Assembly: GCA_025934995.1 (NCBI GenBank)
Contig: JAICWC010000016.1
Coordinates: 1-39,720, forward strand
DNA: 39,720 bases
Direction: 5' to 3'
Origin: Thermoleophilia bacterium
GTDB lineage: Bacteria; Actinomycetota; Thermoleophilia; Gaiellales; Gaiellaceae
Each line of letters begins with the position of its first letter. Position 1 is the first letter of the stretch. Below the pieces are notes generated by a model. It was not told the DNA's origin, did not search any database, and saw nothing but the letters and a program-made list of their open reading frames with translations. The position numbers and the translations under genes were made by a program. Below, piece by piece: positions 23,813 through 29,713 of the stretch.

Positions 23813-24406
23813 CTAGGCGGAGACGTAATCGAAGTCCGACGCGAATGCGCAGTTGCCGGACAACTCGAGCCCTGCGAGCGAGAGCTCGTCCGCGTAGAGC
23901 TCGCGGCCGGGGTGGTCGTACCCGGGAATCCCGCACGCGATCGGCGCGTCGGTCTCCACCCGCTGCGACGCGCGCAGCCGGATCTCGTCGCCGACGCTGA
24001 TTGCGCCGGACTGAACGACGAATCCGCTCGACTCGACGCCGACGAGATTCCGGGCCTTGCGGATCCACGGCAGCTTCGCGGTGTGCGGGCCGCCGAGCCC
24101 GTCGAGGAAGAGGCGCTCCAGCGCCGCGTGTTGGTCTTCGGCCGCACGATCGTCGATGTGCAGCGTCAGCGTCCACGGCGAGCCCGGCTCGTCGTCGTCG
24201 TAGCGGAAGACGAGCGCGACGCAGAGGCCGGCGACGTCGACGTCCCCGATCCAGCCGTCGTCGATCCGCCACGTCAGGAGCCCGAAACAGACGCCGTGCG
24301 TCGAGCGGCCCCCCTTGACGTTGCCGACCATCCGGCAAGGGCAGATCGCGTCGCAGTTGCAGGACTCGAGGTACGCGCCGCGGATCCGAAACGCCAGATC
24401 GCCCAC
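23813..24406 (-). CDS. DUF1326 domain-containing protein
   Basis: AYLESCNCDAICPCRMVGNVKGGRSTHGVCFGLLTWRIDDGWIGDVDVAGL; GTG start at 24406. Confidence 0.85.
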   Translation of the reverse strand: MGDLAFRIRGAYLESCNCDAICPCRMVGNVKGGRSTHGVCFGLLTWRIDDGWIGDVDVAGLCVALVFRYDDDEPGSPWTLTLHIDDRAAEDQHAALERLFLDGLGGPHTAKLPWIRKARNLVGVESSGFVVQSGAISVGDEIRLRASQRVETDAPIACGIPGYDHPGRELYADELSLAGLELSGNCAFASDFDYVSA

Positions 24407-24430
24407 GAGGGCGACTGTACGCTGATCCTC

Positions 24431-27400
24431 ATGAGCCCGCTCGACGTCTTCTCGGCAGAGACTCGCGCGTGGTTCGAGCGCACGTTCGACGGGCCGACAC
24501 CCGCGCAGACGAAGGGCTGGCCGGTGATCGCGACCGGCGCGCACACCTTGATCCAGGCGCCGACCGGGTCGGGCAAGACGCTTGCAGCGTTCCTCTACGC
24601 GATCGACCGCTTGACCGCGCAGCCGGGGGAAGGTCTGCGGGTGTTGTACGTCTCGCCGTTGAAGGCGCTGAACTACGACGTCGAGCGCAACCTGCGCGGC
24701 CCGCTGGCGGGACTGCAGTCGCAGCTGCGCGTCGCGGTGCGCACCGGCGACACGTCGCAGAAAGAGCGCCGCGACATGGTGCGTGCTGCGCCGGACATCC
24801 TGATCACGACGCCGGAGTCGCTCTTCCTGATGCTGACGTCGCAGGCGCGCGAGGTGCTGCGCAGCGTCGAGACGGTGATCGTCGACGAGGTGCACGCGGT
24901 CGCGGGGACGAAGCGCGGCGCGCATCTCTCGCTGTCGCTCGAGCGTCTGCAGCGCCTGACCGGCCGCGAGCCGCAGCGCATCGGCCTCAGTGCGACGCAG
25001 CGCCCCCTCGAGGAGATCGGCCGCTTCGTCAGCGGCGCGCGGCCGATCCAGCTCGTCGACGCAGGCGTCGCAAAGAAGCTCGACGTCGAGGTCGTCGTCC
25101 CCGTCGAAGACATGCGCGAGCTCGCGTCGAACGCGCAGCTCTCGCAACCCGAGTACGACCGCGGGCCTGCGGACGCGGGGATCACGCCGGGCCTCGAGGT
25201 CGGCTCCAACTCGATCTGGCCGTCGATGTATCCGGCGCTGCTCGAGCTCGTGCGCGCGCACCGCTCGACGATTGTCTTCGTCAACAACCGCCGGCTTGCG
25301 GAGCGCCTCGCCCTGAGATTGAACGATCTCGCGGAGGAGGCCGCCGGCGCCGAAGGCGCTCGGCCAGAGGTTCTGGCGCGCGCCCATCACGGCTCGCTGT
25401 CGCGCGAGCAGCGCACGCAGATCGAGGAGGATCTGAAGGCGGGCCGCATCCCGTGCCTCGTCGCGACCTCGTCGCTCGAGCTCGGTATCGACATGGGCGC
25501 CGTCGACCTCGTCATCCAGGTCGAGTCGCCGAAATCCGTCGCGCGCGGGCTGCAGCGCATCGGCCGCGCCGGTCACTCGCTCGACGAGGTCAGCAAGGGC
25601 CGCATCTTCCCCAAGTACCGCGCCGACCTGCTCGAGAGCGCGGTCGTCGTGCAGCGGATGCAGGAGGGGGCGATCGAGGAGACGCAGATCCCGCGCAACC
25701 CGCTCGACGTGCTCGCTCAGCAGATCGTCGCGATCTGTGCCGACGACGAGATCGAGGTGAGCGAGCTGCACACGCTCGTCCGCGGTGCGTACCCATTCGC
25801 AGAGCTCTCGCGCCCGCAGCTCGAGAACGTGCTCGACATGCTCGCCGGGCGCTATCCGTCCGACGAGTTCGCCGAGCTTCGCCCGCGCATCGTCTGGGAC
25901 CGGACGGCCGGCGTCATCCGCGGCCGGCCCGGGGCGCGCAGGCTCGCGGTGACGAATGCCGGCACGATTCCCGACCGCGGCCTCTTCGGCGTGTTCATCG
26001 TCGACGGCGGCGGCCGGGTGGGCGAGCTCGACGAGGAGATGGTGTACGAGGCGCGTGCCGGGCAGGTGATCATGCTCGGCGCGTCGTCGTGGCGGATCGA
26101 GGAGATCACGCGCGACCGCGTCCTCGTCTCGCCCGCGCCGGGCGTCCCGGGTGCGGTGCCGTTCTGGAAGGGCGAAGGCATCGGGCGCCCGTACGAGCTC
26201 GGTGCGGCGATCGGCACGTTCACACGCGAGCTGCTGGCGCAGCGCGACCCGCAGGTGCCGTATCTCGATGCCCGCGCGAATGCCAACCTCGTCGCCTTCC
26301 TGCGCGAGCAGGAGAAAGCGACCGGCGTCGTGCCGTCGGACCGCACGGTCGTCGTCGAGCGCTTCCGCGACGAGATCGGCGATTGGCGGATCTGCGTGCT
26401 GACGCCGTTCGGCGCGCGCGTGCATGCGCCGTGGGCGATGGCGGTCGCTGCGCGACTGCGCGAGTCGCTCGGCGTCGACGTGCAGTCGATCTGGTCCGAC
26501 GACGGCATCGCGTTCCATCTGCCCGATGCCGACGCGCCGCCCGACACGCAGCTCTTGCTGCCGACGGCGGAGGAGCTGGACGAGCTCGTGCTCGCCGAGG
26601 TCGGGCAGACGGCGCTCTTCGGCGCGCGTTTCCGCGAGAACGCGGCACGCGCGCTGCTCATCCCGCGCCGCCGCCCGGGCGAGCGCACGCCGTTGTGGCA
26701 GCAGCGCCTGAAGGCGCAGGGACTGCTGCAGGTCGCGCGCAAGTACGCGAGCTTCCCGATCGTCCTCGAGACGTACCGGGAGTGCCTGCAGGACGTCTTC
26801 GACCTGCCGGCGCTGAAGCAGCTCCTGCACGGGCTCCGCACGCGCCGGCTCGACCTCGTCGACATCGAGACCGGCTCGGCGTCGCCGTTCGCCGCCTCGC
26901 TGCTGTTCGACTACATCGCGACCTACATGTACGAGGACGACACGCCGCCGGCGGAGCGGCGTGCGCAGGCGCTCTCGCTCGACCGTGAGCTGCTGAAGGA
27001 ATTGCTCGGCCAGGAAGAGCTGCGCGAGCTGCTCTCGGTGGACGCGCTGCACGACGTCGAAGCGAGCCTGCGTCCGGTGCCGCAGCGCGACGCGGAGCAT
27101 CTCCACGACATGTTGCGGCTGCGCGGGGATCTTGCCGTCGGCGAGTTCGACGAAGCGCACGCGGCGATCCTCGAGGCGGAACGCCGGGCGGTTCGCGTCC
27201 GCATCGCGGGCGCGGAGCGTCTGATCGCGGTCGAGGACGCGGGGCGGTATCGCGATGCGCTCGGCGTCATGCCGCCGTCCGGCCTCCCCGACGCGTATCT
27301 CGACGGCGGCCCCGACTCGCTGCGCTCGCTCGTCGCCCGCTATGCGCGCGGCCGCGGCCCGTTCACGACCGCAGCGATCTCGAGCTGGTTCGGTATCGAT

Positions 27401-28726
27401 GTCGAATCGATCCTGCGGGAGCTCGAGCGGGAGGAGAAGCTCGTGCGCGGCGAGCTGCGCCCCGGCGGGACCGAGCGCGAATGGTGCGATCCCGACGTAT
27501 TGCGCCGGTTGCGGCGTGCATCGCTCGCCGCTCTGCGGCGCGAGGTGGAACCGACGGAGCAGGCGGCGCTCGGGCGCTTCCTGCCGCACTGGCACGGCGT
27601 CGACCGGCGTGCGTCCCTGCGCGAGGCGCTCGTGCCGCTGCAGGCGTTGCCGCTGCCGGTGTCGTTGTGGGAGTCGGAAGTGCTGCCGCGCCGCGTGACC
27701 GACTACCGCCGGGAGCAGCTCGACCAGCTGTGCGCATCGGGTGAGCTGATCTGGGTCGGCGCCGGCCTCGACCGTGTCGCGCTGTTCTTCCGCGAGGATG
27801 CGCCGCTCCTCGGCCGCCCGTCTGCTGCGCCCGAGCCGGAGGGGCCCGTCCACGACGCGATCCGCCGCGCGCTCGCCGGCGGTGCGCTCTTCTGGCCGAT
27901 CGTCCCGGAGCTCGAGGACGCGATCGCGCTGCCGGCGCTCTGGGACCTCGTGTGGTCCGGCGAGGTGACGAACGACCAGTTCGCGCCGCTGCGCGCCGAG
28001 CGGCGCTATCAGGCGCCTCGCGCCGATCGCCGTGTGCGTCGCTTCGCCCGCCAGCGTTCGGCCGCGGTGTCGCCGACGCAGGGCCGCTGGTCGCTCGCGG
28101 AGCCGCTCTTCGGCGCGCAGCAGCCGGACCGGCGCGCGCTCGCGGAGCTGCTGCTCGAACGACAGGGCATCGTCACGCGCGACGGCGTCCGGGGCGAAGG
28201 AATTCCCGGCGGCTACGGGGCGGTCTACTCCGAGCTCCGCGCGCTCGAGACGCTCGGCACCTGCCGCCGCGGCTATTTCGTCGAGGGGCTCGGCGGTGCG
28301 CAGTTCGCCCTCGGCGGCGCGGTCGAGCGGTTGCGCGAGCTGCGGCCGAAGGAAGGCGAGGAGGCCGAGCCGCTCGTGCTCGCCGCTGCCGATCCCGCCC
28401 AGCCGTACGGCGCCGCGTTGCCGTGGCCGAAGCGCTCGAACGGCCGCGCCGCGCGCGTCGCCGGCGCACACGTCGTCCTGCTCGGCGGCGAGCCCGCGCT
28501 CTTCATCGAGCGCGGCGGTCGTTCGCTCGTACCGCTGCGCGAGCCCGACGAGGAATGGCTGCGCATTGCGCTTGCCGCCCTCGTCTCGCACGTCCGGACG
28601 CGAGGCGGCAAGCGGCTCGCCGTGGAGCGCTTCGACGGCGAGCCGGTGGTCGAGACGATGGCGATGCCGCTCCTCGTCGAGGCCGGGTTCCTGGCCGGGC
28701 CGCGCCGAGCGGTGCTACGCGGCTAG
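24431..28726 (+). CDS. lhr: Large Lhr-type DEAD/DEAH ATP-dependent helicase
   Basis: MSPLDVFSAETRAWFERTFDGPTPAQTKGWPVIATGAHTLIQAPTGSGKTLAAFL; DEVH box VDEVHAVAGTKRGAHL; QRIGRAGH; 1431 aa with long C-terminal region. Confidence 0.95.
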   Translation: MSPLDVFSAETRAWFERTFDGPTPAQTKGWPVIATGAHTLIQAPTGSGKTLAAFLYAIDRLTAQPGEGLRVLYVSPLKALNYDVERNLRGPLAGLQSQLRVAVRTGDTSQKERRDMVRAAPDILITTPESLFLMLTSQAREVLRSVETVIVDEVHAVAGTKRGAHLSLSLERLQRLTGREPQRIGLSATQRPLEEIGRFVSGARPIQLVDAGVAKKLDVEVVVPVEDMRELASNAQLSQPEYDRGPADAGITPGLEVGSNSIWPSMYPALLELVRAHRSTIVFVNNRRLAERLALRLNDLAEEAAGAEGARPEVLARAHHGSLSREQRTQIEEDLKAGRIPCLVATSSLELGIDMGAVDLVIQVESPKSVARGLQRIGRAGHSLDEVSKGRIFPKYRADLLESAVVVQRMQEGAIEETQIPRNPLDVLAQQIVAICADDEIEVSELHTLVRGAYPFAELSRPQLENVLDMLAGRYPSDEFAELRPRIVWDRTAGVIRGRPGARRLAVTNAGTIPDRGLFGVFIVDGGGRVGELDEEMVYEARAGQVIMLGASSWRIEEITRDRVLVSPAPGVPGAVPFWKGEGIGRPYELGAAIGTFTRELLAQRDPQVPYLDARANANLVAFLREQEKATGVVPSDRTVVVERFRDEIGDWRICVLTPFGARVHAPWAMAVAARLRESLGVDVQSIWSDDGIAFHLPDADAPPDTQLLLPTAEELDELVLAEVGQTALFGARFRENAARALLIPRRRPGERTPLWQQRLKAQGLLQVARKYASFPIVLETYRECLQDVFDLPALKQLLHGLRTRRLDLVDIETGSASPFAASLLFDYIATYMYEDDTPPAERRAQALSLDRELLKELLGQEELRELLSVDALHDVEASLRPVPQRDAEHLHDMLRLRGDLAVGEFDEAHAAILEAERRAVRVRIAGAERLIAVEDAGRYRDALGVMPPSGLPDAYLDGGPDSLRSLVARYARGRGPFTTAAISSWFGIDVESILRELEREEKLVRGELRPGGTEREWCDPDVLRRLRRASLAALRREVEPTEQAALGRFLPHWHGVDRRASLREALVPLQALPLPVSLWESEVLPRRVTDYRREQLDQLCASGELIWVGAGLDRVALFFREDAPLLGRPSAAPEPEGPVHDAIRRALAGGALFWPIVPELEDAIALPALWDLVWSGEVTNDQFAPLRAERRYQAPRADRRVRRFARQRSAAVSPTQGRWSLAEPLFGAQQPDRRALAELLLERQGIVTRDGVRGEGIPGGYGAVYSELRALETLGTCRRGYFVEGLGGAQFALGGAVERLRELRPKEGEEAEPLVLAAADPAQPYGAALPWPKRSNGRAARVAGAHVVLLGGEPALFIERGGRSLVPLREPDEEWLRIALAALVSHVRTRGGKRLAVERFDGEPVVETMAMPLLVEAGFLAGPRRAVLRG

Positions 28727-28731
28727 AGGGT

Positions 28732-28906
28732 TGATGTGAAATTCGGCCGCCGCTGCGGGCGCGGCCAGACCAAGCCGGTCGACGCGGCCGGCGGCGTGGC
28801 GTAGCAGCGCTACGACTCGCGGACGGGCGTGGCGGAAGCGGGCGCGCAGCGCCCGCTGGCCGGCGCAGCGTCTGACGCGGCCGCAGCCCGGCCAATTTTC
28901 ACATCA
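28732..28906. repeat. Intergenic structured element with long imperfect inverted arms and internal hairpins
   Basis: Arms TGATGTGAAATTCGGCCG (28732-28749) and CGGCCAATTTTCACATCA (28889-28906) pair at 16/18; pairing extends to ~38 nt per arm. Internal hairpins CGTAGC-AGC-GCTACG (28800-28814) and AGCGGGCGC-GCA-GCGCCCGCT (28837-28857). Confidence 0.75.
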
Positions 28907-29713
28907 GGCCTTTAGCTCGGCGACGAGCTCGGCGACCGACTGCTCGCGGCACCGCGTCGCCCCGGTGCCGCCCATGAAGAGCGGGCCTCGCTCGCGCGAG
29001 ACCTGACGCTGCTGCGGGAACGGCAGCGGCGTCTCGTGCATCAGGTCCTGCAGCACGTCGTCACGAGCCGCGCGCATCGGGCGACCCGTATATGCGTCCG
29101 TCACGACCGTGTCGTGCGTGCGCAACGCCTCGAGGTGCTCGCGGGGGCGGCTGCATTCGTGCGTGAACAGGAACGCGGTGCCGACCTGCACGCCGACCGC
29201 CCCGAGCGCGAGCGCCGCGCGCACGTCGTCGCGGGTCGCGATGCCGCCGGCCGCGATCACCGGCACACCCGAGATCGCCGGCACGAGCTCGGCGAGCGGC
29301 ACGAGTGGGAAGCCGTCGAGAAACGAGCCGCGGTGTCCGCCGGCCTCCGCGCCCTGCGCGATGACGTAGTCGACGCCGGTCTCGCGCAGCACATCCGCCT
29401 CCGCGGCCGTCGTCGCCGTGCCGAGCACTTCGATGCCTGCGTCGTGCAACGGTGCGGGATCGACGAGGCCGAACGTGAAGGAGAAGTACGCGGGGCGCTC
29501 CTCCAGCACGACCGCGAGCGCGTCGTCGCGCAGGTACGGCGGCGCGAAGAGGTTGACGCAGAACGGGAGATCGGGCATCGCGCGAATCTCCGCGCGCAAG
29601 CCGTCTGCCGACATGCCCGCCCCCGCGATCGTGCCGATCGCGCCCGCTTCGCACACCGCCGCGGCGAAGCCGGGAGGCTGGTTGTTCGCCATCGGCGCCT
29701 GAAAGAGCTTCAC
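28904..29713 (-). CDS. Nitronate monooxygenase (NMO/2-nitropropane dioxygenase family)
   Basis: LFQAPMANNQPPGFAAAVCEAGAIGTIAGAGMS, VDYVIAQGAEAGGHRGSF, VIAAGGIATRDDVRAALALGAVGVQVGTAFL; GTG start at 29713. Confidence 0.92.
   Translation of the reverse strand: MKLFQAPMANNQPPGFAAAVCEAGAIGTIAGAGMSADGLRAEIRAMPDLPFCVNLFAPPYLRDDALAVVLEERPAYFSFTFGLVDPAPLHDAGIEVLGTATTAAEADVLRETGVDYVIAQGAEAGGHRGSFLDGFPLVPLAELVPAISGVPVIAAGGIATRDDVRAALALGAVGVQVGTAFLFTHECSRPREHLEALRTHDTVVTDAYTGRPMRAARDDVLQDLMHETPLPFPQQRQVSRERGPLFMGGTGATRCREQSVAELVAELKA

Follow-up and report, generated by a model that had tools for sequence, protein, structure and literature searches.

MITEs are usually regarded as decayed transposon remnants. 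Correia/NEMIS and ERIC (RU-1) are short MITE-like elements of intergenic regions that give rise to stem-loop transcripts (PMC2229807), and a MITE derived from IS982 exists in Cardinium cOegib (PMC9769881). The IS982 family is defined by inverted repeats ending 5'-AC and by direct repeats of variable length (PMC7335449). The window, that is, the whole stretch of 39,720 nucleotides from a Thermoleophilia bacterium analyzed here, contains a long palindrome between the lhr helicase gene and a nitronate monooxygenase (NMO) gene. This palindrome belongs to a previously unnamed family of ~170-base mobile elements in soil and sediment actinobacteria. Like Correia/NEMIS and ERIC, the family consists of small intergenic MITE-like elements with a stem-loop fold, the transcript being in this case predicted, but sequences, hosts, and ends all differ. 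To our knowledge, a fixed internal loop, restoration of stop codons, and changing types of terminal inverted repeat (TIR) have not been described for Correia/NEMIS or ERIC. The Cardinium cOegib MITE derives from its parent insertion sequence (IS) (PMC9769881), whereas the interior of the present family was not found in the IS, keeps its structure from genus to genus, and is bounded by several TIR types. Searches of open-access papers turned up no described family with this core.

The palindrome is very probably a non-autonomous element of the MITE type, in which the core acts as RNA or as a strand-specific single strand and constitutes cargo re-packaged with IS982-type ends. According to this model, an IS982-family transposase would act in trans on the TIR-bounded element, which would insert into TA, mostly within CTAG, and duplicate the TA. 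Where the element lands on a stop codon, TA and the element's G rebuild TAG, leaving the gene product essentially intact. The core, of nearly constant length, folds into a single long hairpin whose asymmetric internal loop is near-invariant, and it would function as RNA (or as one particular single strand) beyond being a mere DNA palindrome. The same core may have been re-packaged repeatedly with different IS982-type ends.

An earlier sequence-only reading of the window was correct about the palindrome's sequence and arms, its inner hairpins, and the genes around it. It had described a ~175-nt element, which is real, but its extent was set too small, as the element measures 187 bp and is flanked by TA on both sides (Table 1). 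The left arm does not start 5 nt past the lhr stop as had been proposed; the TAG stop (28724-28726) is itself composed of the flanking TA and the first G of the element. The NMO stop does lie within the right arm, as noted, and is supplied by the element. The arm motif occurs in the window at these two sites only, with a chance expectation of 0. The predicted fold energy of positions 28727-28910 is -121 kcal/mol, compared with -96.7 +/- 4.5 for shuffled sequences (z -5.4), and the full element reaches z -6.1. Within a family ranging from 168 to 191 bp, the window copy falls in a longer subfamily with an extra hairpin, together with L117 and L133; its 9-bp hairpin sits in the ~24 extra nt that most members lack. 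Owing to this extra hairpin, a covariance model of the core (R1) matches the window copy only partially (22 bits).

Table 1. Coordinates of the element, its parts, and its immediate flanks in the window.
Feature	Position	Strand	Basis or remark
Whole non-autonomous mobile element	28726..28912	+ (predicted RNA strand)	Family alignments, TIRs, TA flanks; better fold on +
Left TA	28724..28725	.	Taken as one copy of the target-site duplication; bases 1-2 of the lhr TAG stop
Right TA	28913..28914	.	Taken as the second copy of the target-site duplication
Left TIR GAGGGTTGATGTGAAATTCGGCCG	28726..28749	+	Match to the TIR of IS982-like elements L138/L139/L142
Right TIR AAGGCCTGATGTGAAAATTGGCCG	28889..28912	-	Arm-motif search and family alignment
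Conserved AGACCAAGC, 5' side of the near-invariant internal loop	28767..28775	+	Family alignment
Conserved GGCGCAGCGTCTG, 3' side of the near-invariant internal loop	28863..28875	+	Two family alignments
Hairpin CGTAGCAGCGCTACG, core tip	28800..28814	+	Same or compensated among relatives
Region of the additional hairpin in the long subfamily (window, L117, L133)	28833..28857	+	~24 nt beyond other members; compensating stem changes
lhr helicase gene; TAG stop = TA + element's G	23912..28726	+	Pfam DEAD_assoc, WH_Lhr, and others; ORF end
NMO TGA stop, from the element	28904..28906	-	ORF reads into the element's right end

Searches of the genome itself and of relatives, which the sequence-only reading had proposed for recognizing a repeat family, revealed many dispersed copies across relatives. 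Regions matching the element are numerous and lie away from lhr and NMO; the copies measure ~168 bp, carry ends of the type GAGGSYTGATGTGAAA..., and are flanked by TA. The end pattern, which the left TIR of the window copy also fits, is present in 39 of the 103 genomes of the window's bacterial family, while the reversed control pattern occurs in none. A broad scan using one genome per species (84,980 species) returned 56 matching stretches, 47 of which, by our tally, come from Actinomycetota/Thermoleophilia MAGs; the other nine are scattered single matches, about the number expected by chance for such an 18-mer. R1, built from cores without the TIRs or the window's subfamily, has matches in 64 of 103 family genomes (E <= 0.01), those listed being full-length, with at least 36 copies per genome at the upper end. 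Across the phylum (E <= 1e-6) it finds the core in 2 of 397 sampled genomes, both from one other family of the class. Nearly all R1 matches inspected later carry related TIRs, even where the genome lacks the original end pattern. The exceptions L170 (G134:C105) and L214 (G475:C14) have ends that are not of the TAGA..TTGAT type, possibly reflecting another transposon family or decay. The window's own genome holds one full element and two short forms (G000:C86:12659-12693/L036 and G000:C157:706/L035), which consist of only the two ends (~45 bp) and lie at stop codons; further matches to the element in this genome resemble chance GC-rich similarity. Plasmid, phage, and viral collections gave no match to the element.

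The same ends are found on ~980-bp elements (L099, L101, and L107), each with one ORF of ~290 aa. This ORF encodes an IS982-family transposase (NCBIfam NF033520, 152.1 bits against a cut-off of 130) with a DDE domain (PF01609). An IS630/Tc1-type partner, the first idea suggested by the TA flanks, was dropped when the ORF in the TIR-bounded elements matched the IS982 model. The partner resembles IS982 in its transposase score, its length of about 1 kb, and its single ORF, but its ends read GAGG... after TA, beside TA/CTAG, instead of the canonical 5'-AC inverted repeats, so it would represent at most a divergent branch of IS982. Matches to the partner transposase occur in 14 of the 103 family genomes, and the draft genome to which the window belongs, 88% complete, yielded none of this type. 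Transposase-linked TIRs are of the types TGATGTGAAA, TGATGTGGGTT, TGATCGGTAATT, TGATTCC, and TGATGCCACGG, the first four of which also occur on structured elements. Because its ends are common to these transposase-bearing insertion sequences, the structured element is classed as non-autonomous, of the MITE type, and judging from the common ends it is probably moved in trans by the IS982-like transposase.

Other TIR-bounded elements were also observed. One of ~1 kb (L088:1356-2361, G036:C16) carries an FRG-domain gene (PF08867) and no transposase; it is a passenger-gene transposon with the same ends, adjoined by a serine recombinase gene. Another of 808 bp (L098:1575-2382, G123:C87) likewise lacks a transposase and contains a 209-aa ORF without any Pfam or NCBIfam match, whose product is possibly a secreted lipoprotein. 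The IS982-like elements L145, L147, L153, and L154 bear the TIR TAGATGATTGATGCCACGG. None of the IS and passenger elements tested contains a core recognized by R1, and an origin of the core from the IS was rejected.

The structured elements have several features by which bacterial MITEs are recognized: they are short and multi-copy, have TIRs, and contain neither a transposase nor a conserved open frame. Their TIRs are those of an autonomous element in the same lineage. TA borders both ends in most copies, and three loci are empty in sister genomes. The empty loci emerged from joining the flanks of four insertions, at loci other than the window's, and searching 21 genomes, which gave junction-spanning matches for three in several sister species. 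The better conserved empty junctions show a single TA where the filled site has two, though the junctions have diverged such that the length of the duplication is not base-exact. At the window's locus, two genomes of the same genus (G009 and G013) have lhr and NMO near each other with no element between. The sequence-only reading had listed a palindromic mobile repeat among its candidates, which the dispersed family, TIRs, TA flanks, and empty sites bear out.

In 32 copies both ends are bordered by TA; of these, C precedes the left TA in 26 and G follows the right TA in 20, which suggests that the insertion target is mostly CTAG. In the window, whose GC content is 70%, TA occurs 349 times and CTAG only 12 times. 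By our tally under a simple codon model applied to 63 copies, 20 of them with approximate boundaries, the stop codon of a neighboring gene is exactly TA plus the element's G in 34, and convergent gene pairs flank 19. Since both ends of the element begin with G, TA plus G gives a TAG stop on either side, and insertion at a stop codon thus keeps the gene product essentially intact. The family is a clean instance of insertion at stop codons combined with their reconstruction. Either targeting or loss of harmful insertions may underlie this placement.

While the interiors of the copies are strongly diverged, most retain a length of 166-170 bp, and GGGG, CCAAGC, and GCGCCG keep their positions. The internal loop CCAAGC / GCGCCG is nearly invariant, with CCAAGC intact in 59 of 70 copies. 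In an alignment of 28 cores, with the long subfamily left out, double compensatory changes occur at 37 of 50 pairs. Paired cells amount to 87%, against 72% in shuffled and 32-42% in slid alignments, and double-change cells number 205 against 76 +/- 7 in shuffled ones, counts that are inflated because the copies are related and have a shared history. For the strand comparison, either the conserved motif or the model set the orientation of each copy; the CCAAGC strand gives the better RNA fold in 43 of 43 copies and in 27 of 27 further copies (70/70). The mean difference between strands is 22 kcal/mol in the first 43, falling to 4 if the fold may contain no G-U pairs. On the CCAAGC strand, GU:AC counts are 186:45, a ratio of 4.1 compared with 2.1 in shuffled sequences; for the best fold of the opposite strand they are 94:98. 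G-U pairs cluster at certain positions, and pairs dominated by Watson-Crick combinations show only a small excess (33:21).

Each reading frame of the core is interrupted in at least 70% of copies, and Rfam returned no family at gathering or relaxed thresholds. Covariation beyond controls and a strand-specific fold with G-U pairs, the latter weak in Watson-Crick-dominated pairs, are properties of a structured non-coding RNA, another candidate of the sequence-only reading that this signal supports. That reading would have taken a single copy, an absence of covariation, and unconserved arms as signs of a chance GC-rich terminator; none of the three holds for the family. The near-fixed length, near-invariant loop, compensatory pairs, and strand bias indicate that the interior is not transposon debris. 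The folded structure kept by compensating mutations is most likely RNA.

Double changes would also arise in a plain MITE, a neutral palindrome without RNA function in which quasi-palindrome correction, through template switching, rewrites one arm to match the other, and common history among mobile, related copies inflates the covariation counts. Such correction would, however, perfect the arms, whereas the asymmetric loop (CAA / GCCGY) lasts in very diverged copies; the near-fixed length, the many strand-specific G-U pairs, and the superior folding of one strand in all 70 copies compared also weigh against this explanation, which we regard as rather improbable. Alternatively, the fold could work in the form of single-stranded DNA while the element transposes or is replicated, a role that hairpins play in IS200/IS605-type elements. 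Strand asymmetry would then be accounted for without a bias in gene orientation, but the partner is a DDE transposase (PF01609), autonomous and passenger-gene elements have the same ends yet no core, and tolerance of G-U pairs is more typical of RNA. A role as single-stranded DNA rather than RNA is considered unlikely.

A further possibility is a host 3'-end device between convergent genes, either a bidirectional terminator, an RNase barrier, or an RNase III substrate. Nearly a third of the 63 copies are flanked by converging genes, a stop codon directly adjoins most copies, and Correia/NEMIS and ERIC RNAs influence neighboring transcripts (PMC2229807). The bidirectional terminator proposed in the sequence-only reading is not supported, however, because no T-run follows the stem and there are 0 terminator-like matches. 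The RNA strand shows no preferred orientation relative to adjacent genes although one strand is favored in folding, an observation at odds with a simple role in 3' UTRs, and CTAG insertion combined with loss of harmful insertions can explain placement at gene ends. A host device of this kind is assigned a low probability. A REP/BIME repeat mobilized by a RAYT transposase would likewise be palindromic, intergenic, and dispersed, but the ends of the present element are transposon inverted repeats common to IS982-like insertion sequences, long and flanked by TA; the partner is of the DDE IS982 type, the elements measure 168-191 bp, and there is no REP unit of 20-40 nt. This candidate is highly improbable.

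The core, which the preferred reading takes as RNA or a strand-specific single strand, is bounded by four or more transposon end types. A tree of 52 cores requires a minimum of 11 changes of TIR type, as against the 3 that would suffice, even though the types are still clustered; this is a quick tree with long branches. From these changes, cores appear to have swapped ends repeatedly, the alternative being convergent tracking of transposases by mutation. An interior conserved by structure while the ends match different transposases suggests that an RNA (or single-stranded) fold is what is propagated. It is quite possible, though somewhat less likely than not, that these elements form a new mobile-element class with a structured non-coding RNA as its essential cargo, an RNA core with a near-invariant internal loop that is present across genera and two bacterial families, repeatedly takes different IS982-type ends, and spreads near-harmlessly by virtue of rebuilt stops. 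The family accounts for a long palindrome that recurs among soil actinobacteria, a little-studied group, and with the conserved loop and the matched transposases, mobility and RNA function are both open to direct tests. A hybrid structured element (L105:4800-4969, G122:C123) combines an A-type end (TGATGTGAAA) with a B-type end (TGATCGGAAA), and L212 (G475:C8:9583-9857) holds two directly adjoining structured elements that differ in TIR type and lie on opposite strands.
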